From NCBI GenBank assembly GCA_026388545.1, contig JAPLJS010000012.1:1-46008 (forward strand): a stretch of DNA of 46,008 bases. The letters are read 5' to 3'. How positions within the stretch are numbered: position 1 is the stretch's first letter; every line of letters begins with the position of its first letter. The DNA is from Deltaproteobacteria bacterium. Its GTDB lineage: Bacteria > Desulfobacterota > Syntrophia > Syntrophales > UBA2185. The notes under the pieces are model-generated. The model had not been told where the DNA came from. It did not search any database and worked only from the letters and a program-made list of their open reading frames with translations. Positions 9,310 to 29,254 of this stretch are shown here, piece by piece. Position numbers and translations under genes: made by a program.

Positions 9310-10304
9310 TTATGCTTTATCTTCACGGTCTTGGCCATTTTTACCCCGATAATATCATCACCAATCCATTTCTAGAAGAACTGGATATCGGAACATCTGA
9401 AGAATGGATTCTGGAGAGAGTCGGTATTCGTACCCGTCGTACCGTTCTTCCTTTAGACTACATAAGGACTACAAAAAACAGAGACCCGCGCGAAGCTCTA
9501 GACGCCGGCCTCTATAACAATACTTCGACCGGTACCGCAGCTGCGCGGATGGCGCTCGACCGGGCCGGACTCAAACCGGAAGATATCGGTCTTGTCATCT
9601 CCGGCAGTTCCGCCCCCGATAGTCTTTCTCCCGCAGAGGCAACAACCATCGCTGCGGCACTGGGAATAGAGGCTCCCTGTTTTGATCTCAACTCTGCCTG
9701 CACCAGTTTTGGTATGCAGATCCATTTCCTCAGTCAGATGAAGCCGGAAGCTTTGCCGCCCTTTACTCTCGTGGTCAATCCGGAAAATCTTACCCGTAGT
9801 ATAGACTATTCCGACAGAAATACCGCCGTACTATTCGGTGATGGGAGTTCCGCTGCCGTCGTTTCAGCAACCGTCCCATCAAGAGCGGCCTTTATGGCAT
9901 GTTCGTGTGAATCAAAACCTTCGTCCTGTGATAAGGTCAGTATTCCTCGCATGGGCTACTTTCAACAGGACGGAAACGCTGTACAGGGATTTGCCATCCG
10001 AAAAACGACAGAGGCCATTCGTATACTCCAGGATAATTTTTCTGTAAACGGCAACCGCTTTATTTTTGTAGGTCATCAGGCCAACCTGGGGATGCTGAAA
10101 ACCGTCTGTGAGCGTACCGGCATCCTTGAGCAGAATCACTGGCATACAGTGGCGGATTTCGGCAACACCGGTTGTTCGGGAGCGCCTGCCGTTTTAAGCC
10201 AGAACTGGGACGAACTGAATCCCGGCGATCATGTGGCCATCGCCATTGTCGGGGCGGGATTTACATGGGTGCGTATGATGTTGAAGGTGGAAGAAGCATC
10301 ATGA
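9306..10304 (+). CDS. 3-oxoacyl-ACP synthase III (FabH-like)
   Basis: A thiolase-fold condensing enzyme of 332 aa. The Cys-His-Asn triad of KAS III is visible: C132 in LNSACTSFG, His in VGHQANLGML (about 254) and Asn in FGNTGCSGAP (about 285). Such enzymes start chains by joining an acyl-CoA primer to malonyl-ACP; here the primer is unknown. The start is GTG at 9306, overlapping the dehydrogenase stop, or ATG at 9312. GGAAGGGA just upstream can serve either. The stop overlaps the fabA-like start by 4 bp (ATGA). It is the likely priming enzyme of the operon's own synthase. Confidence 0.9.
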   Translation: MIMLYLHGLGHFYPDNIITNPFLEELDIGTSEEWILERVGIRTRRTVLPLDYIRTTKNRDPREALDAGLYNNTSTGTAAARMALDRAGLKPEDIGLVISGSSAPDSLSPAEATTIAAALGIEAPCFDLNSACTSFGMQIHFLSQMKPEALPPFTLVVNPENLTRSIDYSDRNTAVLFGDGSSAAVVSATVPSRAAFMACSCESKPSSCDKVSIPRMGYFQQDGNAVQGFAIRKTTEAIRILQDNFSVNGNRFIFVGHQANLGMLKTVCERTGILEQNHWHTVADFGNTGCSGAPAVLSQNWDELNPGDHVAIAIVGAGFTWVRMMLKVEEAS

Positions 10305-10897
10305 AGTATACGGAATTCATGGAATGCCAGCATTTCGGTCTGGAAGACCTCCTTGCTTTTTCTTATGGAAGCCTGGTGGACGATCCGCCTGCACATTTTG
10401 AAGCCCGGTTACCGGCGCCGCCTTTTCTCATGGCGGACCGTATCCTGTCATGCAAAAGCAACGGAAGACAGGGTTCCATTCTAGCGGAACAGGACATCAA
10501 GCTGGACGCATGGTATTTTCAATGCCATATGCCGGGAGATCCGGTCCAACCGGGGTGTCTCTGCGTAGATGCTGTATGGCAATTATTGGGTTTTTACTGT
10601 GTCTGGCGGGGTGCATTAGGTGCAGGCAGGGCTCTGGGTTGCGGTGAGGTTACTTTTAACGGTCAAATCCGTCCCTATAATAAATGTGTCCGTTATGAGA
10701 TTCACATTAAGCGATATGCCCAGTTGAAGGAATCGGGGGCAAGTTTGGCAATCGCAGATGCCAATATTTATGTGGACAATGAAATGATAGCCCAGATTAA
10801 AGATGCGCGCACCGGTGTTTTTCAGGGAATTATCTATCCCGACTACCCGAAACGATCAGCCAATTCTGTCGGTGGAATCATGAGAGGTGGTTCATGA
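10301..10897 (+). CDS. fabA: FabA-type 3-hydroxyacyl-ACP dehydratase/isomerase
   Basis: 198 aa when started at the ATG overlapping the preceding stop (ATGA); the longer open frame runs back into the KAS III gene. It follows E. coli FabA closely: PAPPFLMADRI, CHMPGDPVQPGCLCVDAVWQ and GRALGCGEVTFNGQI. Catalytic H76 and D90 match E. coli H70 and D84 with the same spacing. FabA dehydrates 3-hydroxyacyl-ACP and isomerises trans-2 to cis-3 decenoyl-ACP, which is how anaerobes can introduce a double bond without oxygen. A FabA together with a separate FabZ-like enzyme and a KAS II in one operon suggests an unsaturated acyl product (inference). The stop overlaps fabG by 4 bp. Confidence 0.92.
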   Translation: MKYTEFMECQHFGLEDLLAFSYGSLVDDPPAHFEARLPAPPFLMADRILSCKSNGRQGSILAEQDIKLDAWYFQCHMPGDPVQPGCLCVDAVWQLLGFYCVWRGALGAGRALGCGEVTFNGQIRPYNKCVRYEIHIKRYAQLKESGASLAIADANIYVDNEMIAQIKDARTGVFQGIIYPDYPKRSANSVGGIMRGGS

Positions 10898-11622
10898 ACA
10901 GGAAACCCGTTGCAATTGTAACCGGCGGTGGAAAGGGTATTGGTGCGGCATGCTGTCGAGCATTGTCCGTGGAAGGATTCCAGGTAGGCGTTCATTACCG
11001 TAGCAGTGAGGAACAAGCAAAGGCTGTTCTTGCTGAAATCGGCGATGGCTTTCTCCTCCAGGCGGATCTTGCCGACACCGACCAGGTAGAAGCCCTGGTC
11101 AATACGGTGAAGCAAACAGCGGGACACGTGGATGTTCTTGTCAATAATGCCGGAGTATCGGTAAATGCCGATATCAACAGTATGAAAATTGAGCAATTCG
11201 ATGCTCAGCGTGCAGTTACACGCGGAACCTGGTACCTGACCAAACGAATCATCCGCCTCTTTATGCTGCGTCAGGGAGGGGGTCGTATCATTAATATATC
11301 CAGTGTCGTAGGGCATACCGGCAACGGCGGCCAGATTCCTTACACCATGGAAAAGGCGGCCATTGATGCCTTCACAAAATCCCTGTCGAAAGAATTAGCG
11401 GGGCGTAATATCCTCGTCAATTCAGTAGCTCCGGGATTCATTGAGACAGAGATGACGCAGCAGCTTCCCGAAGAGGTACAAAAGAGAATTCTCGATAATA
11501 TTTCATTGAACCGTATAGGACGTCCCGAGGAAGTAGCCGAAGTGGTGGCTTTTCTCGCAACGCGCGGTTCATATATATCCGGAAGCGTCGTCCATGTGAA
11601 CGGGGGACTTTATGGCGGCTGA
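10894..11622 (+). CDS. fabG: 3-oxoacyl-ACP reductase (FabG-like SDR)
   Basis: A 242-aa short-chain dehydrogenase. The cofactor loop TGGGKGIG is at 10-17, NNAG at about 84-87, and the catalytic set is Ser136/137 (NISSVVG), Y150 and K154 (YTMEK). SRAVTRGTW-type regions differ from housekeeping FabG, as expected for a pathway-specific paralogue. It reduces 3-oxoacyl-ACP with NAD(P)H in the elongation cycle. It starts within ATGA shared with the fabA stop and overlaps the next gene by 11 bp. Confidence 0.92.
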   Translation: MNRKPVAIVTGGGKGIGAACCRALSVEGFQVGVHYRSSEEQAKAVLAEIGDGFLLQADLADTDQVEALVNTVKQTAGHVDVLVNNAGVSVNADINSMKIEQFDAQRAVTRGTWYLTKRIIRLFMLRQGGGRIINISSVVGHTGNGGQIPYTMEKAAIDAFTKSLSKELAGRNILVNSVAPGFIETEMTQQLPEEVQKRILDNISLNRIGRPEEVAEVVAFLATRGSYISGSVVHVNGGLYGG

Positions 11623-12088
11623 TCGGGAAACGATGGTCCGGATTCTCAATAGCGTTCCCCAGCAACATCCCTTTCGCTTTATCGACGAGATACTGGAACT
11701 GGATGATGAACATATTGTGGGCTCTTACCGCTTTCGTGAGGACGAGTATTTTTATCGGGGTCATTTCCCTGACCAACCGATCACTCCGGGAGTCATTCTT
11801 ATTGAAACTATGGCACAAATGGGCGTTGTTGCTTTTGGTCTTTATCTTTACACAAAGCAGATAAATACGTCCATCGATGCATCAAAAGAGTTGACTACAC
11901 TTTTTACTCTTGCAGAAGGGGTGGAGTTTACCGGGCTTGTGAGGCCTGGTGAGCGGGTGATTACCCGTGGTCAAAAAATATATTTTCGCATGGGAAATTT
12001 AAAATCGAAGGTCACCATGGAAAGGGAAAATGGTGAAATGGTGAGTTCTGGTGTATTGGCCGGAAGGGGAGTATCTTTTCGGATTTAA
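11612..12088 (+). CDS. FabZ-like hotdog 3-hydroxyacyl-ACP dehydratase
   Basis: 158 aa with the FabZ signature: HPFRFIDEI near the N-terminus, then FYRGHFPDQPITPGVILIE with catalytic H51 and E65. Family members dehydrate 3-hydroxyacyl-ACP without isomerising. Its presence next to a FabA gives the operon two dehydratases, which may divide work by chain length or stage. It starts 11 bp inside the fabG gene, so translation is probably coupled. The last ~30 residues are less conserved than in housekeeping FabZ. Confidence 0.88.
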   Translation: MAADRETMVRILNSVPQQHPFRFIDEILELDDEHIVGSYRFREDEYFYRGHFPDQPITPGVILIETMAQMGVVAFGLYLYTKQINTSIDASKELTTLFTLAEGVEFTGLVRPGERVITRGQKIYFRMGNLKSKVTMERENGEMVSSGVLAGRGVSFRI

Positions 12089-12120
12089 CACTTAATGTTT
12101 TTTTGGAGGGTTACTGTAAG

Positions 12121-13413
12121 TTGAAAAAGAGAGTCGTTATAACGGGAATGGGGGTAGTGGCCCCCAACGCTCACGGTTTAGATAATTTTGAAGAGGCCCT
12201 GCGTGAAGGCAGATCAGGCATCCGCTTTATTCCTGAACTGCAGGAATTGAATTTTGCATGCCAGATCGGCGGTGTTCCACAGGATTTTGAGAGTATTCGC
12301 AAGCGTTACTTTGATCACGAAAAGCTTCTGTCCCTCAACGATAACATCGGATATGCGTCCGTCTCCGCTGTAGATGCATGGAATGACGCCGGTTTTACCG
12401 TGCCTGACGCAGATGATAATCGAGTGGACTGGGACACAGGTGTGATTGTCGGTTCCGGTATCGGCGGCATGGATACCATTGCCAAGACCGTGGTTCCTAT
12501 GGTCAATGAAGGCAAGGTCCGCCGTATGGGAAGCCGAATCGTCGAGCAGGTTATGAACAGCGGCACCAGCGCCCGTATCGCCGGTCTGATGGCACTGGGA
12601 AACCAGGTGACTTCAAATTCGTCCGCCTGCAGCACAGGGAACGAAGCCGTTATTGAAGCATTGTGGAGAATACGCAATGGACTGGCCAAGCGCGTGCTGG
12701 CCGGTGGATCTGAAGGGGCATCACCCTACATCTGGGCCGGATTCGATGCCATGCGTGTCATCTGCCGGAAATACAACGATCGCCCGGAAGCGGCGTCACG
12801 GCCTTTAAGCGCTTCGGCGAGCGGTTTTGTGCCCGGTTCCGGAGCCGCAGTTCTGGTCATTGAAGATCTGGAATCCGCCCTGGAGCGCGGTGCAAGGATT
12901 TACGCGGAAGTTCTCGGAGGCGCCGTGAATTGCGGAGGGCACCGCATGGGTGGCTCTATAACCGCACCGAATCCTGAAGGGGTCAAGCGTTGTATTGAAT
13001 CTGCCGTATCTGACGCCGGTATCACACCAGGGGAGGTCGATGCAATCAACGGCCACTTAACGGCAACCTTTGCCGATCCCGGTGAAGTGAAAAACTGGTC
13101 GGCAGCCCTCAAACGCGGACCCGATACGTTTCCCTACATCAATTCAACAAAATCATTGATCGGCCATTGTTTAGGGGCGGCAGGAGCCATCGAAAGTGTT
13201 GCCGTCGTATTGCAATTATATAAGGGGTTCCTCCATCCGTCCGCAAACTGCGAGGATATCCACCCCGATATCGCCGAATTTGAAGATAAAGTGCCCCACA
13301 AGTGCATTGACTATCCTGAGTTACGAATCATCGCCAAGGCCGGTTTCGGTTTCGGTGATGTAAACAGCTGTTTGATATTTAAAAAATGGGAAAATAATAA
13401 AAGGAGTTATTAG
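12121..13413 (+). CDS. 3-oxoacyl-ACP synthase II (FabF-like)
   Basis: A 430-aa condensing enzyme with the KAS I/II Cys-His-His triad: C170 in NSSACSTGNEA, H312 in INGHLTATF and H349 in STKSLIGHCLGAAG (K344 conserved). The open frame extends to a TTG at 12103, but that stretch contains the ribosome binding site GGAGGG (12105-12110). The TTG at 12121, ten bases after it, is the better start and gives the usual MKKRVVITGMG opening. It extends acyl-ACP with malonyl-ACP. The first histidine motif (GHLTATFADPGE) departs from the common AHGTSTP form, so substrate preference may be special. Confidence 0.9.
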   Translation: MKKRVVITGMGVVAPNAHGLDNFEEALREGRSGIRFIPELQELNFACQIGGVPQDFESIRKRYFDHEKLLSLNDNIGYASVSAVDAWNDAGFTVPDADDNRVDWDTGVIVGSGIGGMDTIAKTVVPMVNEGKVRRMGSRIVEQVMNSGTSARIAGLMALGNQVTSNSSACSTGNEAVIEALWRIRNGLAKRVLAGGSEGASPYIWAGFDAMRVICRKYNDRPEAASRPLSASASGFVPGSGAAVLVIEDLESALERGARIYAEVLGGAVNCGGHRMGGSITAPNPEGVKRCIESAVSDAGITPGEVDAINGHLTATFADPGEVKNWSAALKRGPDTFPYINSTKSLIGHCLGAAGAIESVAVVLQLYKGFLHPSANCEDIHPDIAEFEDKVPHKCIDYPELRIIAKAGFGFGDVNSCLIFKKWENNKRSY

Positions 13414-13416
13414 AAG

Positions 13417-13665
13417 ATGGATGAACAAACGATTTTTAGCAAAATGATTGACATTTTAAGACTTTATACAAAGGACGCGAGCTTGTTAGACAAGGCGACA
13501 CTGGATACCCACATCCTGAATGACCTCAAGGTCAACTCCGCGCGGTTGGTGGATGTTATTATAAAGTGTGAAGACACCTTCGGCGTTACCGTTGAAGACG
13601 ATGAGGCCGACAAGATCGGGACAATCGGAGATGCCGTTGGCATCATAAAAACTAAATTAGGATAA
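13417..13665 (+). CDS. Acyl carrier protein, atypical NSA phosphopantetheine site
   Basis: 82 residues, acidic and mainly helical, in the position expected between the condensing enzyme and acyltransferase. The attachment serine is S41 in DLKVNSARLVD. Most ACPs have DSL here; this one reads NSA, losing both the Asp and the Leu used by partner enzymes for recognition. The operon encodes its own phosphopantetheinyl transferase, which may have adapted to this sequence. Ribosome binding site AAGGAG precedes the ATG by about 10 bp. It is the carrier on which the operon's enzymes presumably act. Confidence 0.88.
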   Translation: MDEQTIFSKMIDILRLYTKDASLLDKATLDTHILNDLKVNSARLVDVIIKCEDTFGVTVEDDEADKIGTIGDAVGIIKTKLG

Positions 13666-13673
13666 GATGAGGT

Positions 13674-14477
13674 ATGAAGAAAATGCTTCAGGGCCCTCTG
13701 CTCATTCAATATATTCTGGGACGGGTTGCTGTTTTTGTACTCGCCCCGCTCTATTTTGCAGCTATCCGGTTGATGGGATACCGGGTGAGGAATTTACGGA
13801 AGATCAGACAGGAATGCTCTCGTCATTTCAGAAATCACGATGGGCCATGGATCATATGCTCGAATCATCTTACCATGGTTGACTCCCCGATTATTATATA
13901 TGCGACGGTCTCTTTATCCCGTCAGCTGCTTCATTATCGGGAGATTCCCTGGAATTTGCCGGAAAGAAATAATTTTCAGCGGAATATCATCCTGGCAATT
14001 CTCTGTTATCTGTCCAAGTGCATCGCCATCAATCGCGGCGGCAATCGTGAAGAGATGAAAAAAACCCTCGACACATGCAACTCTCTTTTAGAAGGGAAGC
14101 AGCATTTAATGGTTTTCCCGGAGGGAGGGCGCTCCCGGACCGGTAGAGTGAATACCGAGAGTTTTTCTTATGGTGTTGGCCGCTTTGTTAAAGATTTCGA
14201 AAACTGCAAGATTATGTGTATCTATCTCCGCGGGGATGGCCAACATACGTATGGGTTTGTTCCCAGGTTCGGTGAACGTTTTACTGTAAATATTGAAGTA
14301 TTCCAGCCCCAATTAACAAAAGAAAACGGCCTCAGGGCTCAACGCGATTATGCGGAGCAGATCATCAAACACATGGCACACATGGAGGAAGACTATTTTA
14401 CTACGAGTCGGCAACGATATAGTGGATTTGAGAGATCCACACAACGTGGGGAAAAGCCGGAATGCGCGATTCATTAA
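13674..14477 (+). CDS. PlsC-like 1-acyl-glycerol-phosphate acyltransferase (LPLAT)
   Basis: 267 aa with an N-terminal hydrophobic segment (about 10-35) and the acyltransferase box NHLTMVD (N64, H65, D70). Motif III FPEGGRSRTG (148-157) follows. Enzymes of this family move acyl groups from ACP or CoA to a hydroxyl on a glycerolipid or other acceptor at the membrane. Placed directly after the ACP gene, it is the likely unloading enzyme that puts the special acyl chain into a lipid (inference). Its 3' end overlaps the phosphopantetheinyl transferase gene by 80-130 bp, depending on that gene's start. Confidence 0.88.
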   Translation: MKKMLQGPLLIQYILGRVAVFVLAPLYFAAIRLMGYRVRNLRKIRQECSRHFRNHDGPWIICSNHLTMVDSPIIIYATVSLSRQLLHYREIPWNLPERNNFQRNIILAILCYLSKCIAINRGGNREEMKKTLDTCNSLLEGKQHLMVFPEGGRSRTGRVNTESFSYGVGRFVKDFENCKIMCIYLRGDGQHTYGFVPRFGERFTVNIEVFQPQLTKENGLRAQRDYAEQIIKHMAHMEEDYFTTSRQRYSGFERSTQRGEKPECAIH

Positions 14478-15117
14478 CCGCGTTTTCACCCCCGATGAAC
14501 AAAAGCTAATATTTGATGCCGCCAGTCAGGACGCCATACTATGGGCGCTGTGGGCCGGAAAGGAAACGGCATATAAGGTTATCAGCAAATGTTATCCTTC
14601 TGTGACTTCAGTGCCCCGGTTATATAAAGTAAGCCTGCATTCTGTGGAGACACTCACCACATCAGGTGATATTCCTTCTGGAAACAACACCATAACCGGC
14701 TTTGTCGACACACCTTGCGGCAATGTTTACATAAAGATTTTCATAACCTCCGACTATGTCCATTGCATCGGAACCACGTCACCATTGGAAGAAATGGATT
14801 CACTCGTTTGGCATGTAAACCGTATCAGTCCCGATTCAGAAGCCATGCCGGATTATGAATCAACTTTTGGACGTAACGCTCTTAAACGAGGTCTCTTGGC
14901 ATACTGTGAACGAGATCAGGAAGACATTGACATCAAGCGTGAGAAAGGTTGTAATGGTCTGGGGCCTCCCTTTGTGTGTTTAAACGGCAAGCCGGTGGAG
15001 ATTGATATCAGTCTCAGCCATGACGGCTTATTTGCTGCTTACGCTTTTGTTGATAGCGATGCCCGCAAAATGCACGTCAACCCTGAGAATTGCGTTTTAA
15101 AAACCGACCTTCAATAA
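14350..15117 (+). CDS. 4'-phosphopantetheinyl transferase (AcpS/Sfp superfamily)
   Basis: The metal-binding motif VGNDIVDL (D23), then WAGKETAYK (K71, E72, K76) and a C-terminal ISLSHDG follow the AcpS order rather than the Sfp order, although 255 aa is long for AcpS. It would activate the operon's ACP by attaching phosphopantetheine from CoA. The annotated ATG at 14350 adds an unlikely 19-residue basic leader. A perfect GGAGGA (14384-14389) is followed five bases later by ATT (14395-14397), which would give the family-typical opening just before LLRVGNDIVDL. A rare ATT start is therefore plausible. The 3' end overlaps the convergent mobB gene by 41 bp. Confidence 0.82.
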   Translation: MRSRSSNTWHTWRKTILLRVGNDIVDLRDPHNVGKSRNARFINRVFTPDEQKLIFDAASQDAILWALWAGKETAYKVISKCYPSVTSVPRLYKVSLHSVETLTTSGDIPSGNNTITGFVDTPCGNVYIKIFITSDYVHCIGTTSPLEEMDSLVWHVNRISPDSEAMPDYESTFGRNALKRGLLAYCERDQEDIDIKREKGCNGLGPPFVCLNGKPVEIDISLSHDGLFAAYAFVDSDARKMHVNPENCVLKTDLQ

Positions 15118-16996: not shown

Positions 16997-17227
16997 ATGA
17001 AATGCATGGATAGAATCGAGCTTAATCCAAGGGTCTGCAACGGTCGACCTGTTATAAGAGGAACAAGAATCCCGATTTCCGTTATTATTGAGCAGATCGC
17101 GGAGGGCGCTTCATGGGACGAGTTGCTTGTTAACTACCCTGAATTGAAACGTGAAGATATACAGGCAGCCTTATTTTATGCAAGGGAAACCATCGAGCAT
17201 ACCGATATCAGAATAGCCTATGCCTGA
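16997..17227 (+). CDS. DUF433-family antitoxin
   Basis: 76 aa. The motif RVCNGRPVIRGTRIPISVII followed by ELLVNYPELKREDIQAAL is diagnostic of DUF433, a small winged-helix-like domain. Family members sit before DUF5615 PIN-like proteins and act as VapB45-type antitoxins and autoregulators. AGGAGA lies 7 bp before the ATG. The stop lies 8 bp inside the toxin gene, so translation is coupled. It is most likely the DNA-binding antidote of the pair. Confidence 0.9.
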   Translation: MKCMDRIELNPRVCNGRPVIRGTRIPISVIIEQIAEGASWDELLVNYPELKREDIQAALFYARETIEHTDIRIAYA

Positions 17228-17591
17228 AAATATCAAGCTTTATCTGGACCAGATGCTGCAAGCGCACATTGCCCGTGTCTTGCGTGATGAAGGCTTTGAT
17301 GTTCTACGAGTCTCGGAAACCGGTCAATCTCGTGCTGACGACGAACAAGTACTGAAGAAAGCAATCGACGATAATAGAATACTCATTACGCTGGATGAAC
17401 ACTTCGGTGATTGGGCAATCCTCCCGCTGAGCAGGCATCCTGGTGTAATTCGTCTGAAGGTTAATCCGACTACCTCCGATAACATATTACGTATTCTCCT
17501 GCCCTTTTTGCGTCGCCTTTTCCCCGATAAGATTGAGAACCATCTTGTCATACTTTCATCAAGCCGGGAAAAGTGGATTTCCACAGAATGA
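17220..17591 (+). CDS. DUF5615 PIN-like (Mut7-C/VapC45-type) toxin
   Basis: 123 aa. The acidic residues of the PIN-like fold are in place: D10 (LYLDQML), D40/D41 (SRADDEQ), D59 (ITLDEHFGDW) and D64. Members are presumed RNases partnered by DUF433 antitoxins. The start overlaps the antitoxin by 8 bp. The DUF5615 half of such pairs is usually the toxin. The module is bracketed by ~310-bp direct repeats, so it may be gained or lost as a unit. Confidence 0.88.
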   Translation: MPENIKLYLDQMLQAHIARVLRDEGFDVLRVSETGQSRADDEQVLKKAIDDNRILITLDEHFGDWAILPLSRHPGVIRLKVNPTTSDNILRILLPFLRRLFPDKIENHLVILSSSREKWISTE

Positions 17592-19271: not shown

Positions 19272-20027
19272 TTAAAGAAGTAGGTTTACGAACCGCAGGT
19301 AGGGGCGCATGGCGCGGGTGCCGCCGCCTTCGGAGATGATCTGCATGACCTTATTCTCATCCCGGACGATGGCCCCTCCTAAGTGATTGACCGGTGTATC
19401 CTGAAAGATTTCCGGGCACAGGGGCGTTGAGGGGCCGAGAACGGCGACATGCCGGGGATTTCCCAGGCCGTTCAGGACTTTCTCAAGCGTGTCATTGAGG
19501 AGAGTGGTTGCCGTAATGATTGCTATGGTACACTCCTTTAGTATCCTGTCACTCTCTTTCTTATCAAGAACTGCCATGCGGGTGGGGTCCCGTTCAATAA
19601 CGGAAAGTTGTGCTCCCGTCGCTTCGATCTTCGGAACCATCGGAGTGAAGAGACCGACCATGGCCACCCGGTCATCGGGCGTCAGTTTCATGATCGAGAG
19701 TGAATCTCTTTCATCCTCAATACATGCTGTATGAAGAATGGCATTCGCGGTGGCAAGCCCCAGGGCTTTTTCCAGGGGATTCCGATCTTCTATAAGGTTA
19801 TTCAGAAGTGAGGGCTCCTTTGCACCGGCTAACTTCCCTGCCTCAGGAAACACTGAACAGTCTGGCGGTAACTCATGCAGTAACAGGGCCGCAAGCCCCA
19901 TGCGCTGAACATCCAACCGCACCGCCACATAGCTCAGGCCGAACCGAACGTCTTCGACGATAAGGTTTTCACCCTTATGGGAAACAATGCCATGAAGACG
20001 TTGTGCTATTTCACCTGGTGGGAGCAT
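19272..20027 (-). CDS. DUF364/DUF4213-type protein (putative heavy-metal chelation, Rossmann-like)
   Basis: 251 aa from the ATG at 20027. An N-terminal DUF4213-like part (VEDVRFGLSYVAVRL) is followed by a Rossmann-like half with VAMVGLFTPMVPKIEATG, ITATTLLNDTLEKVL and VAVLGPSTPLCPEIF. These features are typical of DUF364 proteins, which are thought to bind metals or small ligands. The open frame continues to 20081, but those 18 codons are translated from a dispersed CCCTCC repeat. The same repeat supplies GGAGGGGGA right before the ATG at 20027, so I prefer that start. It follows the giant AAA+/VWA gene on the same strand after a repeat-filled gap of about 150 bp. Function unknown. Confidence 0.8.
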   Translation of the reverse strand: MLPPGEIAQRLHGIVSHKGENLIVEDVRFGLSYVAVRLDVQRMGLAALLLHELPPDCSVFPEAGKLAGAKEPSLLNNLIEDRNPLEKALGLATANAILHTACIEDERDSLSIMKLTPDDRVAMVGLFTPMVPKIEATGAQLSVIERDPTRMAVLDKKESDRILKECTIAIITATTLLNDTLEKVLNGLGNPRHVAVLGPSTPLCPEIFQDTPVNHLGGAIVRDENKVMQIISEGGGTRAMRPYLRFVNLLL

Positions 20028-20176: not shown

Positions 20177-23100
20177 TCACGTCGAAAAGTGGGTATATCG
20201 CTTGAAGGATGCAAACTCCTTTTGTTCGACTTTTTTTACTTCCTTTTTATCCTCAGGAATTTTTTCATCACGGCCCTTACGTTTTTTACCCTTTGTCTGT
20301 TTGCGTGCTCCGGGGGCTGTCGCAGGAGCGTTACTCCAGGTATCTATCAGACCGGCCAGCTCTCCCAGATTGGTTAACTCTTCAACCCAGACCTCGGTAA
20401 ATCGTGACCTCAGGGCGGGGGAAAGCAGATTTCTTGATTGATGCACAGAAGGCGGATTTATCGCCAGGAATATCCTGAAATTAGGATGGGCATAGCAGAT
20501 ATTTTCCTCTCCATCAATTACATAGCCAAAGTCGAGGAGGCTGTTTACGTATTCGGATAAGGGAGACAGATTCGCTTCATCGATCAATAGCCAGCTCCCC
20601 TCCTCCATTGCCGAAAACAGAAGCCCCTTCCTGTAACGCCATTTCCCCTTCTTATCTTGCGTATAACCGCCCAGGAGTTCTTCCATGCCTGTATCGGAGG
20701 AGAGGTTGACATAATAGAGGTTGGTCTCCTTTTGCCTGGCTAAATATCTGATAAGGGTAGTCTTTCCGGAGGCGGGATTTCCTACCACAAGAACCGGCTC
20801 ACTGTGTATGAGGGCTTTCAGGATCAGATAGAGGGTCGTCCTCTGTGTTGGGGTGGGTATAATGTCCGCGTCATGTCGGGGAATAAATTCATCCCCTTTT
20901 GAGGATATTACGGTCCCAAGCAGGGATTTCAGGTCTTCAGAAGAAGACATGAGCACCGCTTCCAGATCCAGGCCCTTCGCTCTGAAACCAAAATGAGTAT
21001 CCAATAAGCTTACCACCGCTTCTCTTTCGGATTCATCCCTCAGCCTGCCTATATAGATGCTGAAGAACTCCAGGAAGAACTTTTTCAGGAACTCATCATC
21101 TGCCGGCCCTGTTGCGAGGATCGGTTCTAATCTCTTGCCCAGCCTGATGATATCTCTGAGGGTAAAGGTAAACGGGTCTTTTTCCGCCCTGCCGATAATG
21201 CGGCTATCCGCCTGATTCTGTAAGGTGGTGTGGAATCTCGCGATCGGAAGGGCCAAAGAAGAAGAAATTTCGAATAAGGAACTTAATATCTGGGACAGTT
21301 CTTCCTCGGAGAGCTCTTTTTGATAGAGGATTTTAAACCGTGATAAAAAAACCTCCGAGAGTTTCTGTCTCTGGCTGTAACTTTCAGGGTTTCCGGTGGC
21401 AAAGAGCCTGAAGTCCGGATGGGGATACAATTCCTTTTGCTCCCCGTTTGCCGAATATGATATCTTTCCCGTAATCAGATAGTCATTCAATATCTCAACA
21501 ACTTCGGAAGACGCCAGGTTTATTTCTTCGAGAGCCAGCCACAAACCCTCTCGCGCCGCATTCAAAAGAATCCCATCCTGCCAGACGAATCTTCCTTCGC
21601 TATCCGGTTTAATACCACCGATTATCTCAAACTTGGAGGTATACGGATTGATGGAATACGAGAGGTGCTCGTAGCCCAATACCTTGGCCAGCCATTTAAT
21701 TAAGAAACTCTTCCCTGTTGAGGTAGGGCCCAGGAGCAGGATAGCGTGTTTCAATAAATAGCCGATACTTAACGTCTCTATAATATGATAGCCGGAGGCC
21801 GTCATCACGCAGGCAGGGATCTCAGTGCTCTGTGATGTCCTGTCCAAAAGAAGATTCCCCACGGTTAACAACTTTTCATCAACCTGAACCTGGCTGGAAT
21901 GTGTACCGGAGAGGGTATTTGCCATCGGTTCGCCCAGCATCGCATTGAAAGAGGATAAAACCTTGCTGAATTCTTTTTCATTGCTCGATATTAAATCCGA
22001 AAAGATTTTTATTGAAGCCCGTGCGGCGACCTGACGGACTGACCAGATCTTATCCTTTAATCTCCTTTCCAGTTTGCTTAAATCAGCATCATTCCCCTGT
22101 TGGAAAAGCGTATGATGGATCTGCACTAAAGCCAGGGCTGCTGCCTGGTGGACAAACCAGTTTTCATCCTTTAACCGTTCTTCCAATGCCTTAAAGGTTA
22201 TCTTCCTCCGGTTGTAACTGTGGGGCCATATCCGGCCCAGGGCCTGGGCTGCGGCCTGGCATACGGACCTGTCCACATCCGCGTCCCATAACCTCTCTTC
22301 CAGTTTTTTTAAGTTTACACTTTTTCCCCTTTTGATAAGGACAGGGTATATCTGGCCCAACGTCTGGCATGCGGCCTGGCGGACGGACCAGCTTATGTCT
22401 TCAAGTTTTTCTTCTATATCTTTTAAGTCCATCTTCCCCTGGTAATAGCGGTGAAACCAGATCCGGCCCAGTGCCTGAGATGCGGCCTGGCGGACAGACC
22501 AGTCATCATCGTCCAACCGTTCTTCCAGTACACTTAAGCTTACCTCTTTCCCCCGTTTGATAAGGGGGGGATAGGTTTGACCCAGGGCAAGGGCTGCGGT
22601 CTGACGGACGAGTATGTTTTTATCCTTCAATTTATCTTCCAATCTGCTTACATCCACTTCAATCCCCTGCTTGATGAGTGCAGGATAGATCTGGCCCAGG
22701 GATTCGGCTTCGGCCTGACGGACAAACCAGTTTTTATTCCACAATCCCTCTTCCAGTTTGCTCAGGTTTACATCTATTCCCTGTTTGACCAGCGCCGGAT
22801 AGATCTTACCTAAGGCCCGCGCTGCGGCCTGGCGGAGGGCCCAGTTTGTGTCATCCAGTCTATGCTCTAATTCCGCTAGCGATACTTTCCCCTTGCGATA
22901 ATTTTGATACCATATCCGGCTTAAGGCCTGAGCCGCGGCCCGGCATACCGTGGGATCTTCATCATTCAATCCTTTCTCCAAAGCACCCAGGTCTGCGTCT
23001 TTTCCCTGTTTGATAAGTGCGCGGTAGACCCGTCCCAGGGCTAAGGCTGCGGGCTGCCTGACAGCCCAGCTTTTATCCTCTAATTTTTTCTCCAATTCCT

Positions 23101-25585
23101 CTAAGGTTATTTCTTTTATGAGTTCATCGTGGATGACCCGGAAACACGCCTCCAATCCGGGAATACACACAAACGCAATATCAGAGGAACTGACAAGCTC
23201 CTTCAATAATGAGAGGGCTTTCTCAAGCTCCGGATGTGAGTTGTGCTTCATCACAATATCCAGTAAAGGAGCCAGATCATGAGGGATTGATGCCACGGGG
23301 ACCGCTGCATGGGAAGACGCGGGGAGGAAGTCTTGAGGCACATCCTGAGGGGTAAAGTCAGGGAATATCCTCTGGATATCCGTAAGTTTTTCCAGGATAA
23401 GCTCCCTTACCCTGTACGGTTGCTCCTGGGGGTCGATAAAGGCATATTTCAGGCTCCTCCCGAACCCCTCTTTTTCAGGATAACCCCTGCTTAATAAAAA
23501 CCCCAACAACTCCGAAGCCCTCTTCAAGTGTCTCACATTGAAGGTAGGGATATTCTGCTTTTGATGAAGGTAGATACCCGCCAGGAGTTCAGACAAATCC
23601 TGAGGAAGAGCAAGTGTCGGCAATTCCCCGCCGCTTCTGCCTTCATGGTGCGGCGTCAAAAAACTTTGCCAAAATACGTCCTGATGAACCAGTCTTTCCT
23701 CCAATATGCCGGAAAGTACGGAGGGCAGTTCTTCTACTTTGTCTATTTGTATACCGCTCTTATAACGTTTTATAACCTCGGTTACTTCTTCGCCTAATCC
23801 CACTCCCAGTACCTCAATCTTTTGATCTAAAGCTTCTTTCTGAAGCTGAAAAAAAGTCTTTCCTGTTGTATTCACGTTTCCCTCTCCATCAGTCACCATA
23901 ATGATCCATCGTGATGAATCCTCCGGCTGATCTTTTAATATATTCGTAGCTAACTGAAGGGTATCCGCATCAGCGGTTGAACCTCCCGGTATGTACATGG
24001 ACACCTCTTCGAATAACAATCTCCGGTCAGGGGGAGTCAGCTTCCTGCCAAACTCTTTGTGCATGACCGGGCTATCGGAAAATCCGATTACCGCATAATC
24101 GATGCCGATATGATCCAACGCCTCCATAAAGACTAAAAGGCCCGCCAGGGCCGATGTTCTCTTGGGTTCTTCCATAGAGGCGGATTCATCCAGAGCCAGG
24201 ACTATCTTGTGATCTCTCTGGGAGGGAAGCCTTCTCTTCAAGAATACCCGTAAATCCTTCTCCTGGACGGGAATACCCTCGCTCAATTTTCGGGAAAGCT
24301 CCATTGCCCTTCGTAAATCCGGCTTCTGGCCTGAGGGGAAATAGCCCTTAAACGTCGGTCTTTTATTTTTTGAGAAGTGATTTTCCAGGACCCCGCTTAA
24401 TGCCTGGACTAAATTCGAGATGAGCTTATAGACCCTCTCATATTCGCTTATCTTCGCGTCCTGCTCCCGGTTAATGATGCGCTGCTTTTTGATGAGGTCC
24501 CGGAGCGTCTCCGCAGGCAGAGGCTCTGATTTCCTCTCCTCGTGAGATTCCCCCCCTTCTACAAGTGTCTCTTTTTCTTCAGAAACGCCCTTTCTGTATC
24601 CATCACTTTTTCTCGTAATCTGTTTTTCCGTCTTTGGGGAAAATCTATTCGCCAGCTCCTTTGCGTTCAGTTCCAGGAGCTTCCTGGCCTCTTCCTCCAG
24701 CTCACCAGGGCTTAAATCCTCCTGGGCGCATTTTTTCTGTTTTATCTGGATCTGATTATTTTTTATCTCTTCAGCTAATTTTTCTATTGTTATCCTGACT
24801 AAATTTTCATACTCGGGGAGAATTGTATCCCTGACCATCAGGGCGGCTTCTTCAGCGAATTTCATTCTCTCTTGTTCCGAGACGCGCCCGGCAGGATAAT
24901 GATGGAAAATTGCATCAAAATCCTTATACGTCCGCTCCAATGCAACAATTACTTCAGGATTCATTATCTGGGAAGGCAAGCGGCCATATCGCCAGTAATA
25001 TCGCATGCCCAACAGATATTCTAAATTGAGATACAAGAGAAAGGGATGACACGTGGTATTCGCCTGTTCGGCTATTTCACCCCGCAGGTGCCCTACATAC
25101 GTTGATGTATTTAAATCCTGGGGGAGCAAATCGTCATAGGTTATATCCAGGTAATGTTTTATCCCCTTGAAGGCGCCGATCAGCCAGTTGTCAACCCGGC
25201 TATCCTCAAAGGCATTTAAAAGCAGCCTCGTAGATTCGCTGGAGAAGAAGCGTTTAAACACTGCTTTTCTCAAATTATGGCGGGATATCTGCCTGTGTCC
25301 TGCTTCGTGAGCGGAAAATCCTATAATCTCTTCCGGAGAAGAGGTTAAAAGCAATTCGACGGGGAATAGTATTTCGTTTGTCTCTGCATTGTATTTCCAC
25401 CGATCACCGGGCACGATGTTCAGGTTTACATCATCGCCTAAACCCGTGGAGATAATTGTTATCAGCGTAAGCAGGCGACTGTCGATTACAAGCGCCTCTA
25501 TCTCGTCTAATCCTCTCTTGCGGACCAACTCCTCTACGCACTTCGCCCGCAAAGCCCCCTGTTTTGTTTCCCTCTTATCCTGCAT
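20177..25585 (-). CDS. Giant midasin-like fusion: HEAGH domain, VWA, ten HEAT-like repeats, two AAA+ modules
   Basis: A single 1802-aa chain. Residues 1-250 carry a zincin-type HEAGH (93-97) with a candidate third ligand E127 in NAFEDSRVD. Residues 260-380 are charged and probably coiled. A VWA domain (about 460-640) has a complete MIDAS: D466, S468, S470, T537 and D566. Residues 828-1205 are ten repeats of 37-40 aa around WxVRQAAAxALGxIY. AAA+ module 1 has Walker A GPTSTGKS (K1292) and an EE (1353-1354) in place of DE in Walker B. Module 2 has GNPASGKTT (K1608), LIDEANL (D1669, E1670) and an arginine finger in ALRSRF (about 1728). A Lys/Glu-rich tail ends the protein. Both AAA+ modules are of the MoxR/midasin type. 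Such ATPase-VWA pairs usually remodel or metallate a partner; here all parts are fused. The target is unknown. Confidence 0.88.
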   Translation of the reverse strand: MQDKRETKQGALRAKCVEELVRKRGLDEIEALVIDSRLLTLITIISTGLGDDVNLNIVPGDRWKYNAETNEILFPVELLLTSSPEEIIGFSAHEAGHRQISRHNLRKAVFKRFFSSESTRLLLNAFEDSRVDNWLIGAFKGIKHYLDITYDDLLPQDLNTSTYVGHLRGEIAEQANTTCHPFLLYLNLEYLLGMRYYWRYGRLPSQIMNPEVIVALERTYKDFDAIFHHYPAGRVSEQERMKFAEEAALMVRDTILPEYENLVRITIEKLAEEIKNNQIQIKQKKCAQEDLSPGELEEEARKLLELNAKELANRFSPKTEKQITRKSDGYRKGVSEEKETLVEGGESHEERKSEPLPAETLRDLIKKQRIINREQDAKISEYERVYKLISNLVQALSGVLENHFSKNKRPTFKGYFPSGQKPDLRRAMELSRKLSEGIPVQEKDLRVFLKRRLPSQRDHKIVLALDESASMEEPKRTSALAGLLVFMEALDHIGIDYAVIGFSDSPVMHKEFGRKLTPPDRRLLFEEVSMYIPGGSTADADTLQLATNILKDQPEDSSRWIIMVTDGEGNVNTTGKTFFQLQKEALDQKIEVLGVGLGEEVTEVIKRYKSGIQIDKVEELPSVLSGILEERLVHQDVFWQSFLTPHHEGRSGGELPTLALPQDLSELLAGIYLHQKQNIPTFNVRHLKRASELLGFLLSRGYPEKEGFGRSLKYAFIDPQEQPYRVRELILEKLTDIQRIFPDFTPQDVPQDFLPASSHAAVPVASIPHDLAPLLDIVMKHNSHPELEKALSLLKELVSSSDIAFVCIPGLEACFRVIHDELIKEITLEELEKKLEDKSWAVRQPAALALGRVYRALIKQGKDADLGALEKGLNDEDPTVCRAAAQALSRIWYQNYRKGKVSLAELEHRLDDTNWALRQAAARALGKIYPALVKQGIDVNLSKLEEGLWNKNWFVRQAEAESLGQIYPALIKQGIEVDVSRLEDKLKDKNILVRQTAALALGQTYPPLIKRGKEVSLSVLEERLDDDDWSVRQAASQALGRIWFHRYYQGKMDLKDIEEKLEDISWSVRQAACQTLGQIYPVLIKRGKSVNLKKLEERLWDADVDRSVCQAAAQALGRIWPHSYNRRKITFKALEERLKDENWFVHQAAALALVQIHHTLFQQGNDADLSKLERRLKDKIWSVRQVAARASIKIFSDLISSNEKEFSKVLSSFNAMLGEPMANTLSGTHSSQVQVDEKLLTVGNLLLDRTSQSTEIPACVMTASGYHIIETLSIGYLLKHAILLLGPTSTGKSFLIKWLAKVLGYEHLSYSINPYTSKFEIIGGIKPDSEGRFVWQDGILLNAAREGLWLALEEINLASSEVVEILNDYLITGKISYSANGEQKELYPHPDFRLFATGNPESYSQRQKLSEVFLSRFKILYQKELSEEELSQILSSLFEISSSLALPIARFHTTLQNQADSRIIGRAEKDPFTFTLRDIIRLGKRLEPILATGPADDEFLKKFFLEFFSIYIGRLRDESEREAVVSLLDTHFGFRAKGLDLEAVLMSSSEDLKSLLGTVISSKGDEFIPRHDADIIPTPTQRTTLYLILKALIHSEPVLVVGNPASGKTTLIRYLARQKETNLYYVNLSSDTGMEELLGGYTQDKKGKWRYRKGLLFSAMEEGSWLLIDEANLSPLSEYVNSLLDFGYVIDGEENICYAHPNFRIFLAINPPSVHQSRNLLSPALRSRFTEVWVEELTNLGELAGLIDTWSNAPATAPGARKQTKGKKRKGRDEKIPEDKKEVKKVEQKEFASFKRYTHFST

Positions 25586-25919: not shown

Positions 25920-26588
25920 ATGGGATTTCTAAGTAGTACAGTAGGCAAGAAGATTTTAATGGCAATCACAGGTTTTTTACTCATATTATTCCTGTGCGTT
26001 CATCTTCTTGGCAATTCTTTTATTTACTTCAATTTGATCAACGCTTACGGCCAACATCTGCATAGTGTGCCGCCGTTGGTATGGGCAGCCCGTATCGGCA
26101 TGGTAATTTTGTTTGCTGTTCATATCTTTTTCGGCATTACGCTTACCCTGGAGAACTGGGCTGCGAGGCCACAGGCATACAAGGTGAAAAAGAGCCTCCG
26201 TGCGACATTCGCAGGCAAGACAATGATCTGGACAGGGCTCGTGATAGCTGCTTTTCTCATTTATCACATCCTTCATTTTGCCATGAAGGTAACCAATCCG
26301 GATATATCACAGTTCGAAGATGACCTTGGGCGCGACGATGTATTCAGGATGATAGTGCTCAGCTTTCAAAATGTTCTTATAGCAGGCGGTTATATCGCCG
26401 CATTGATTGCTGTTTTTCTTCATTTGTACCACGGAATACAGAGCTTCGTGCAGACCTTCGGACTGAATAGCGACGCATCGATTCCTGTCGTTGAAAAGAC
26501 CGGGGGAGGAATCGCATTTATCCTGTTTCTTGGGTATGTGTCAATTCCGGTTGCGGTCGTATTAGGCATATTAAAATATATAGGATAG
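25920..26588 (+). CDS. sdhC: Succinate dehydrogenase/fumarate reductase cytochrome b subunit
   Basis: 222 aa with five membrane helices and histidines suited to two b hemes (HLLGNS about residue 28, HIFFG about 68, YHILHF about 121-125, HLYHG about 165-168). This matches the single-anchor diheme type of Bacillus, Wolinella and Desulfobacterota. It anchors SdhAB and exchanges electrons with menaquinone. GAGAGGAGG lies before the ATG. It is followed by sdhA after 12 bp. Confidence 0.92.
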   Translation: MGFLSSTVGKKILMAITGFLLILFLCVHLLGNSFIYFNLINAYGQHLHSVPPLVWAARIGMVILFAVHIFFGITLTLENWAARPQAYKVKKSLRATFAGKTMIWTGLVIAAFLIYHILHFAMKVTNPDISQFEDDLGRDDVFRMIVLSFQNVLIAGGYIAALIAVFLHLYHGIQSFVQTFGLNSDASIPVVEKTGGGIAFILFLGYVSIPVAVVLGILKYIG

Positions 26589-26600
26589 GGGGGATGAATC

Positions 26601-28514
26601 GTGATAATTGACGGAAAATGTCCATCGGGTCCACTTCCGGAAAAGTGGGATAAGCATCGCCAGGATATGAAAATGGTGAATCCAAACAATAAACGGAAAT
26701 ATAAAATTCTCGTCGTCGGCACCGGACTTGCCGGCGCCTCCGCTGCTGCTTCCCTTGGAGAGCTCGGGTATAACGTCGAGTCTTTTTGTTATCAGGACAG
26801 CCCCCGGCGCGCCCATAGTATCGCAGCCCAGGGTGGAATCAACGCAGCCAAGTGTTACCAGAACGACAATGACAGCATCTATCGCCTCTTCTTAGACACC
26901 ATCAAGGGCGGCGACTTCAGGGCCCGCGAGGCAAACGTGTATCGTCTCGCCACGGTCAGCAACAATATCATCGATCAGTGCGTAGCCCAGGGCGTTCCTT
27001 TTGCGAGGGATTATGCAGGCTACCTCGATAACCGCTCCTTCGGCGGCGCACAGGTCTCCCGTACCTTCTATGCGAGAGGGCAGACGGGCCAGCAGTTGCT
27101 CCTCGGCGCTTATTCGGCGCTTATGCGCCAGGTTAAACTCGGGACTGTAAAGATCTTCCCGCGCACCGAAATGCAGGACCTTATCGTTGTTGACGGCGAG
27201 GCAAAGGGCATCACGATACGCGATCTCATAACAGGAGAAATCCGCTGCCATGCCGGCGATGCCGTCCTTCTCTGCACCGGCGGCTATATTAGGGTATTCA
27301 ATCTGTCCACAATGGCCATGGGCGCCAGCGTCACAGCAGCATGGCGTGCACACAAGAAGGGCGCCTTCTTCGCGAACCCCTGTTATACGCAGATTCACCC
27401 GACCTGTATCCCCGTAACGGGAACGCACCAGTCGAAGCTTACCCTCATGTCCGAGGCGTTACGCAACGACGGCCGTATCTGGGTCCCCTTGAAAAAGGGC
27501 GAGAAGCGTCCGGCTAATGATATACCTGAAGGCGAGAGGGATTATTACCTTGAGCGCAAGTATCCGAGCTACGGCAACCTGGCGCCCCGCGACATTTCCT
27601 CCCGCGCCGCCAAAGAGGCGTGCGACGACGGCCGCGGAGTGGGTCCGACAGGCTACGGGGTTAACCTCGATTTTGCCGATTCCATGAAACGCCTTGGAAA
27701 ACAGGTGATCGTCGAGCGCTATGGCAACCTCTTTGATATGTACCTGAAGATAATGGGTGAAGATGGCTATAAAGTACCGATGCGCATCTATCCGGCGCCC
27801 CATTATGCCATGGGCGGTCTGTGGGTGGATTACAACCTCATGAGCAACCTCCCGGGCCTGTTCGTACTCGGCGAGGCAAACTTCTCCGACCATGGCGCAA
27901 ACCGCCTCGGCGCAAGCGCGCTCATGCAGGGACTGGCGGACGGCTATTTTGTCATACCCTTCACCATATGCGGCTATCTCAATGCGACGAAGCCCGGCAA
28001 GGTGAAAGAGGACCATCCCGAATTCAAGAAATCCATAGAGGAAACAGCAGCGACCAACAAGAAGCTTCTCTCCATTAAAGGCAAGAAGACCGTGCACGAG
28101 TTACACCGCGAGCTCGGTAATGTCATGTGGGAACAGCTTGGCATGGCCCGGAGCGAGCAAAGCTGCAAGAAGGCTATCGAATTGATACCCAAGATACGGG
28201 AAGAATTTTGGAATAACGTAATCGTCCCCGGCAGCGGGAATGAACTGAACCAGCAGCTTGAAGATGCGAACCGCGTTGCCGACTCCATCGAATTCGGAGA
28301 ACTTCTTGGTTACGACGCCCTGAACCGCGACGAGTCGTGCGGCGCACACTTCCGCGTCGAGCACCAGACTGCGGAAGGCGAAGCAATACGCAATGACAAG
28401 GATTACTGCTATGTTGCAGCATGGGAATTCAAAGGTGTTGGCCAGAAGCCCGAATTGCACAAAGAACCACTCTCATTCGAAACGCTGAAGTTGGTGGAAA
28501 GGAGTTACAAATAA
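26601..28514 (+). CDS. sdhA: Succinate dehydrogenase/fumarate reductase flavoprotein subunit
   Basis: 637 aa starting with GTG after GGGGGG. A dinucleotide fold [15 protein letters not shown] begins at about residue 39. The FAD-linking histidine is in [14 protein letters not shown], followed by [20 protein letters not shown]-type substrate residues, HPTCIP and the flavin segment [20 protein letters not shown]. The sequence follows the B. subtilis/deltaproteobacterial three-subunit type. It interconverts succinate and fumarate. In syntrophs the endergonic oxidation of succinate uses menaquinone and the membrane potential. The stop shares one base with the sdhB start. Confidence 0.95.
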
Positions 28515-29254
28515 TGAATCTAACACTTTTTGTATGGCGCCAGAAGGGCCCAAAGGATGCAGGAAAGCTTGAACAGCACCTTGCAAAGGACGTCAGCCCC
28601 GATATGTCATTCCTCGAGATGCTCGATGAAGTCAACGAACATCTGATCAAAGAGGGCAAGGAGCCGATAGCCTTTGACCATGATTGCCGCGAAGCGATTT
28701 GCGGGGTATGTTCACAGGTCATCAACGGTGTCCCTCACGGACCCCAGGAGAAGACCACGGTCTGTCAGCTCCACATGAGGCAGTTCAAGGATGGCGACAC
28801 CATCTATATAGAACCCTGGAGGGCCAAGGCATTCCCTCTTGTAAAAGACCTGATCGTTGACCGCAGCGCCCTGGATCGCATCATTCAGGCAGGCGGCTAT
28901 ACATCTGCCCATACCGGGGGAGCTGCCGAGGCAAGTGCGATACTCATACCCAAAGGCGATGCCGATGTGGCTATGGACGCAGCAGAATGTATCGGATGCG
29001 GAGCCTGCGTCGCAGCGTGTCCCAACGGGTCGGCGATGCTGTTTACCGCCGCGAAGGTCACGCAGCTTGCGATGCTTCCCCAGGGTCGGGCAGAGGCCGC
29101 GCGACGTGTATGTCTGATGACGGAACAAATGATCAAGGAAGGTTTCGGCAACTGCACGAACCATTATGAATGCCAGGCCGCATGTCCGAAAGGAATCAAG
29201 GTTGCATTCATCGCCAAGCTGAACAGGGAGTTCATCAAGGCCCAAATGCCGTAG
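28514..29254 (+). CDS. sdhB: Succinate dehydrogenase/fumarate reductase iron-sulfur subunit
   Basis: 246 aa from the ATG at TAATG; the longer open frame to 28421 lies inside sdhA. Three clusters are visible: [2Fe-2S] in [12 protein letters not shown] plus a later CQLH, [4Fe-4S] in [12 protein letters not shown], and [3Fe-4S] in [15 protein letters not shown]. It carries electrons from SdhA to the SdhC hemes. Last gene of sdhCAB, followed by a long GC hairpin. Confidence 0.95.

Follow-up and report, generated by a model that had tools for sequence, protein, structure and literature searches.

Architecture of the gene and its product

An earlier, sequence-only reading of the window, the whole 46,008-nucleotide stretch of DNA analysed here, had proposed an open reading frame of 1802 residues at 20177-25585 without naming its strand. 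We confirm this frame and place it on the minus strand, as the plus-strand frame over the same interval contains many stops; GAGG stands immediately 5' of the ATG. The gene is present in a single copy in the host genome (3.28 Mb, 128 contigs). Elsewhere in that genome, another frame (G000:C105:52451-54016, 871 aa) carries two AAA_5 matches of the non-midasin-lid type.

Pfam searches and a motif scan of the product recovered the proposed domain order, namely a HEAGH motif, a MIDAS-VWA domain, ten HEAT repeats and two AAA+ modules, with every named motif position correct. In an alignment of ten sequences with identity down to 42%, H93, E94 and H97, the E127/D128 pair and the five MIDAS residues show no variation at all. 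Divergence from one relative (L010) amounts to 0.11/0.07/0.34 by codon position, a clear third-position excess. The invariance of the HEAGH, ED and MIDAS residues, together with this bias of substitutions, indicates that the architecture did not arise by chance.

Table 1 Features of the 1802-aa gene and its downstream neighbour (window coordinates)
Feature	Residues	Position	Strand	Evidence or remark
Whole gene: CobT-like HEAGH domain, VWA, HEAT scaffold, tandem midasin-type AAA+	1-1802	20177..25585	-	
N-terminal domain, apparent kin to CobT N-terminal domain	~36-290	24716..25480	-	Invariant motif (n=10); hhalign to phage CobT
HEAGH motif	93-97	25295..25309	-	
E127-D128, candidate third ligand	127-128	25202..25207	-	Aligns with ED of phage CobT proteins
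Variable linker, N-terminal domain to VWA	291-404	24374..24715	-	32% identity to split form over 291-380
Strongly conserved pre-VWA segment GYFPSGQKPDLRRAMELSRKL	405-458	24212..24373	-	Alignment
VWA domain, MIDAS D466/S468/S470/T537/D566		23666..24211	-	Pfam VWA above cut-off; hhalign to CobT VWA
Helical segment	660-740	23366..23608	-	Second gene of the split family begins here
Ten HEAT repeats	828-1207	21965..23104	-	Pfam HEAT E=6e-42; repeat scan; solenoid matches
AAA+ module 1 core	1262-1425	21311..21802	-	AAA_5; top PDB match midasin (domain i-E 3e-26)
Midasin-type AAA lid of module 1, LRD sensor-2-like motif (R1477)	1429-1533	20987..21301	-	PF17867
AAA+ module 2 core, no lid	1572-1746	20348..20872	-	AAA_5; motifs
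Lysine-rich tail ending KRYTHFST		20180..20347	-	Fused family only
DUF4213+DUF364 gene, putative heavy-metal chelation, next downstream		19272..20027	-	

The N-terminal half and its likeness to CobT

The HEAGH motif (H93-H97) and the candidate ligand E127 lie where the sequence-only reading had put them, and HEAGH or HEIGH, followed later by FED, is kept in all ten aligned sequences. No Pfam model matched this domain above threshold, and no sequence link from it to any solved structure was found. Phage CobT-like proteins (L047-L055), whose genes adjoin CobS ATPase genes and some of which have PF06213 matches down to 2e-37, display HE[VA][GA]H and then ...ED..IER...F.G. Aligned with seven phage CobT-like proteins by hhalign, the N-terminal domain scored 41.6 with HEAGH and ED in register, against a top score of 23.0 among 200 column shuffles. 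Additionally, the VWA domain aligned with the CobT VWA at a probability of 98.7. The CobT_C model gave 18.9 bits for the 1802-aa protein, below the Pfam cut-off of 21; PF11775 is sub-threshold for this protein, with a best E of 1.8e-6 among its relatives, and PF06213 is not among the Pfam matches listed for it. Canonical CobT (PDB 9uka) gave a noise-level alignment with the N-terminal domain and has no HExxH in the aligned region. Several phage CobT-like proteins carry an intact HExxH...ED site, in contrast to that region of 9uka, and no publication dealing with the function of this site turned up in our literature search.

Because both the N-terminal domain and the VWA match CobT, in the same order, the N-terminal half is, to judge from sequence, a CobT-like VWA adaptor. 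It has in common with CobT and phage CobT (PF06213 + PF11775) an N-terminal HExxH...ED site (in the phage forms), a linker, a C-terminal MIDAS-VWA and a MoxR-clade AAA+ partner. CobT differs in being a separate protein whose partner is the single-AAA CobS, and the genome of the 1802-aa protein has no CobN. Hence the metallopeptidase-like motif noted earlier stands, but its reading as an unrelated protease does not; the motif would belong to the N-terminal domain of a CobT-like adaptor, the usual architecture of a MoxR partner. An AlphaFold2 model of residues 1-660, built with 7 similar sequences, reached a pLDDT of only 41.6, too poor to read the fold; it places strands before the HEAGH helix and a helix before E127, which is compatible with a zincin but is not evidence for one. 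Given this poor model, the zincin claim extends no further than an invariant motif within a CobT-type domain, short of any fold or activity.

Within the N-terminal half, conservation is lowest in the linker. In front of the VWA domain, GYFPSGQKPDLRRAMELSRKL is a candidate AAA-docking element, and a sub-threshold VWA_CoxE match covers residues 416-474. The complete MIDAS that had been predicted is present (DESAS at 466-470, T537 and D566), and its DxSxS...T...D pattern is invariant in the ten sequences.

The HEAT scaffold and the tandem AAA+ modules

The repeat scan resolved exactly ten HEAT-type units of about 38 aa, the number counted before, starting at residues 828, 866, 903, 941, 979, 1017, 1054, 1092, 1131 and 1169. 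In a second structure model (pLDDT 53.7), the repeats themselves show values of mostly 80-90, and there are solenoid matches.

The two AAA+ modules that had been proposed are both borne out by AAA_5 matches above cut-off, and both are intact in Walker A, the Walker B acid pair, the sensor-1 Asn and the arginine finger. Module 1 has GPTSTGKS (1286-1293), LEEIN (E1353-E1354), N1399 and R1416, and module 2 has GNPASGKT (1602-1609), IDEAN and R1728. The EE in place of DE in the Walker B of module 1, already pointed out in the sequence-only reading, is invariant in an eight-sequence alignment and thus a fixed family trait. An AAA_5 core with a helix-2 insert, Walker A and B, sensor 1 and arginine finger places the modules in the MoxR/dynein-midasin clade, and their insert region aligned with midasin AAA3/AAA5 without large gaps.

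The midasin likeness turned out to be stronger than first suggested. Midasin AAA3 is the top PDB match of both modules (i-E 3e-26 for module 1 with its lid, 1e-23 for module 2), far ahead of CbbQ (1e-8 and 1e-4 for modules 1 and 2, respectively), NorQ (6e-6 and 2e-4) and CobS (3e-5 and 8e-4). Moreover, module 1 is followed by a midasin-type lid, PF17867, which had gone unmentioned (E=7e-15, 55.6 bits versus a cut-off of 22.7). Of 297 genomes searched within the phylum, 6 contain PF17867, each time as part of this protein, and a set of 14 controls contains none. In a maximum-likelihood tree of 158 columns, with midasin segments taken from HMMER alignments, both modules group with midasin modules as against NorQ-like, MoxR and CobS proteins with moderate support (77/94). 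AU p values of 0.39-0.47 for odd/even pairing did not discriminate between possible midasin counterparts of each module.

The protein and midasin (Rea1/Mdn1; PF07728 + PF17867) thus have in common both AAA+ cores, the module 1 lid and a MIDAS-VWA in the same chain. Midasin, however, carries six AAA modules in one chain, an acidic linker and a C-terminal VWA, whereas the 1802-aa protein is bacterial and has two modules, the second lidless, an N-terminal VWA with a CobT-like domain, and HEAT repeats before the AAA part. With only two modules and the reversed order, it is not a midasin.

Since only 25-31 residues in the split forms described below, or a lysine-rich tail in the fused forms, follow its arginine finger, module 2 has no lid in cis. 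This is unusual for a working AAA+ module; it had not been noticed before and counts against the explanation we favour. The tail motif KR[FY]TH[FY][ST][TA] is a conserved feature of fused proteins, and none of the split forms has it. Residues 682-699 (FNVRHLKRASELLGFLL) have the look of a lid sensor-2 helix, and the helical segment around them was considered as a displaced module 2 lid. With hhalign, this segment scored 13.2 against the module 1 lid (shuffles up to 20.4), 13.5 against a broader lid set (shuffles up to 17.6) and 20.3 against four NorQ-like lids, in the expected register and with 2 of 200 shuffles equally high; hhalign is weak for lids, as a true lid scored 14.6 and 22.1. The displaced lid is therefore not supported by hhalign.

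Fused and split forms

Genome contigs yielded seven relatives at 70-84% identity, of which six bear the label Syntrophaceae and one Deltaproteobacteria; five of them are complete over residues 1-1802, and the alignment keeps the whole architecture. Over the Syntrophaceae MAGs taken together, identity is 70-86%. There were none in viral contigs, and plasmids and phages yielded matches only to single AAA, HEAT or VWA stretches. The fused protein occurs in the host genome and eight more of the same family, being present in every genome listed for that family, and our genome search detected none in other families of the same order. Whether the domain order recurs, a check proposed by the sequence-only reading, is thus answered in the affirmative by 8-9 genomes.

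Across 395 genomes of the phylum, one further family has the protein, in five of its five genomes, one of which is a single 2.54-Mb contig. A tandem-AAA profile gave more than 1000 bits for this protein family in the same genomes, and everything else scored 44 bits or less and consists of single AAA modules. In the second family the parts form a two-gene operon: gene A (~580 aa, HEAGH and VWA) corresponds to residues ~36-635, and gene B (1146-1168 aa, HEAT, AAA, lid and AAA), which overlaps it by a few bases, begins at about residue 664. Fused and split forms share 46% identity in the N-terminal domain, 54% in the VWA part, 30% in HEAT, 72% in AAA1, 49% in the lid and 70% in AAA2; constraint is strongest on the two ATPases and weakest on the HEAT scaffold.

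Because the same parts are two adjacent genes in the second family, the single chain is a fused operon. The single-chain machine described in the sequence-only reading therefore holds for the fused family, but not as an inherent trait. Likewise, the VWA is indeed N-terminal, in the reverse of the midasin order, yet this is no special trait; with the adaptor gene upstream in the split family, it reflects the gene order of the pair.

Genes adjoining the fused and split loci

Of the eight fused loci with a known 3' side, seven have a DUF4213-DUF364 gene as the next one on the same strand, with a 4-base overlap in three. For DUF364, which includes a solved member, the genome context is one of carrying and chelating metals (iron, tungstate, vanadium and molybdate; PMC2954201). 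A GNAT acetyltransferase gene and MobB (molybdopterin guanine dinucleotide synthesis) follow it in the window, and similar genes lie near several relatives. One fused copy (L041) lacks DUF364 beside it, which counts against our preferred explanation, and none adjoins the split forms. Directly downstream of the split operon, two genomes encode a B12-dependent (class II) ribonucleotide reductase (L028:949-1986 and L029:14057-16246). The gene after the split operon in L026 resembles thioredoxin reductase. No conserved client gene is common to fused and split loci, and this also counts against the favoured explanation.

Proposed mechanism and alternatives

In many bacteria, metals are loaded or enzymes remodelled by MoxR-clade ATPases together with their VWA partners; the work of midasin on ribosomes is of a related sort. 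The reading that we consider fairly likely for the 1802-aa protein is a remodelling machine of MoxR/VWA type, powered by ATP, in which one polypeptide holds both adaptor and motor; its task is probably metal-centre assembly or enzyme activation. In favour of this are the invariant MIDAS, the intact ATPase motifs and AAA cores 70-72% identical to those of the split family, whose operon form argues that adaptor and motor belong together. The midasin matches and lid of the motor, the CobT likeness of the N-terminal half, the NorQD precedent described next, and the adjoining DUF364 gene with MobB close by speak for it too. The overall weakness of the two structure models (pLDDT 41.6 for residues 1-660, and 53.7) counts against it.

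The working model is NorQD, in which a VWA finger docks in the pore of the AAA+ hexamer, the VWA protein consists of an N-terminal domain, a linker and the VWA, and a twist of the VWA against the N-terminal domain, driven by ATP cycling, has been proposed to open the client for iron insertion (PMC13036017). NorQ/NorD and CbbQ/CbbO have the N-terminal domain-linker-VWA adaptor and the MoxR-clade AAA+ ring in common with our protein. In NorQ/NorD, by contrast, a homohexamer of single-AAA NorQ works with a separate NorD, and the motor is of another subclade. With its tandem AAA in one chain and its fused adaptor (separate in the split family), the 1802-aa protein is not of the NorQD/CbbQO type. 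The NorD N-terminal domain of S. meliloti has no HExxH.

From the anatomy, homology, conservation and fused and operon forms observed here, we infer how a ring might be composed, how force might be transmitted and what the client might be. The N-terminal half would act as the adaptor, its HExxH/ED domain, linker and MIDAS-VWA docking on the ATPase ring and holding the client. The C-terminal half would be the motor, with the HEAT solenoid as a scaffold or client-binding arm in front of the two midasin-type modules. AAA+ rings normally consist of six modules, so a ring of three chains (2 x 3) would be likeliest, and it would then hold three tethered adaptors, not one. Nucleotide cycling may then twist or pull the VWA and linker and so open the client, as in NorQD. 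Given the DUF364 context and the family precedent, the client would most likely be a metalloenzyme needing a cofactor inserted or released. A bolder version seems doubtful to us: the undivided unit of midasin might have a bacterial relative here, whose motor of two AAA modules forms a 3 x 2 pseudo-hexamer, with the module 2 lid supplied from elsewhere (a neighbour or segment 660-740) and a covalent CobT-type VWA adaptor driving it. If so, the protein would preserve a stage that lies between gene pairs of the single-AAA MoxR/VWA kind and midasin's chain of six AAA modules.

In both families HEAGH and the E-D pair that follows it never vary, so that the site is under selection, and canonical CobT lacks such a site in the aligned region. 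Both observations speak for an ATP-fuelled metalloprotease, whose AAA modules would unfold clients for cleavage by the HEAGH domain. We nonetheless regard it as unlikely, since alignment places this domain with the N-terminal domains of CobT, relatives of which act as adaptors, a zincin fold did not emerge from the model (pLDDT 41.6), and the adaptor-VWA-HEAT-AAA order is unlike that of FtsH or Lon, where the protease comes after the AAA domain.

That the protein is instead a midasin-like assembly factor, stripping factors from ribosomes or another large particle, is very unlikely. Both ATPases and the lid are of midasin type and a MIDAS-VWA is shared, but the distribution is narrow (two families of one phylum, among 395 genomes of that phylum), the loci examined have no ribosomal gene context, and bacteria are not known to have the midasin clients Rsa4/Ytm1.

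The sequence-only reading had also suggested a self-contained chelatase. Taken to mean one chain acting as a class I tetrapyrrole metal chelatase like CobNST or ChlIDH, this would fit the CobT-like N-terminal half, a motor of the wider MoxR/chelatase clade and the adjoining heavy-metal DUF364 gene. However, the motor is midasin-type, not CobS-type, and the CobN/ChlH large subunit (PF02514) is absent from 11 of the 13 genomes carrying the protein, that is, from the host and 10 of the 12 others, with only G074 and G188 having it. The absence of this subunit makes a class I chelatase highly improbable.

MoxR-vWA-beta-propeller and ternary systems likewise link a MoxR-type ATPase to vWA and repeats, in assemblies with effectors, and the bpMoxR model matches module 1; they consist of three separate genes with effectors and have no tandem midasin-type AAA (PMC7159879). 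We give scarcely any credence to a conflict or defence system of this kind, as the PADLOC matches of the AAA and HEAT parts are weak, partial and to generic P-loop and HEAT, the gene is in every family genome listed, unlike a mobile defence island, and no effector domain came to light.

Place among known systems

In the literature searched, chiefly open-access papers, we found no published description of a HEAGH-VWA-HEAT-AAA-AAA architecture. The protein is an apparently undescribed MoxR/VWA-type form with a midasin-type motor and, with the large subunit absent, no class I chelatase. The family thus presents one machine in two states, as an operon and as a fusion, and brings motors of midasin type to bacteria, which bears on how midasin's giant chain arose from separate adaptor and motor genes. 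The fusion fixes the adaptor-to-AAA ratio at 1:2. Being small enough to express, the protein could be used to probe VWA tethering and the ring stoichiometry proposed from NorQD, and its invariant adaptor HExxH offers a way into why CobT-like adaptors carry or lose a metallopeptidase-like site.

Other features of the window

Divergent from the 1802-aa gene, an sdhC-sdhA-sdhB-like operon (succinate dehydrogenase/fumarate reductase, named by eye) occupies 25920-29254 on the plus strand; no such neighbour was seen in the relatives examined. RavA-ViaA is a MoxR-VWA pair acting on fumarate reductase. A small DUF5615 protein, PIN-like and Mut7-C-like, is encoded at 17220-17591 (+); DUF5615 is often part of toxin-antitoxin systems. 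At 8110-15117 (+) lies a fatty-acid/polyene-type cluster with acyl-CoA dehydrogenase, ketoacyl synthases, an acyltransferase and a phosphopantetheinyl-transferase-like protein, and counterparts of this cluster are found 3' of the homologue of the 1802-aa gene in L011, L013 and L015.
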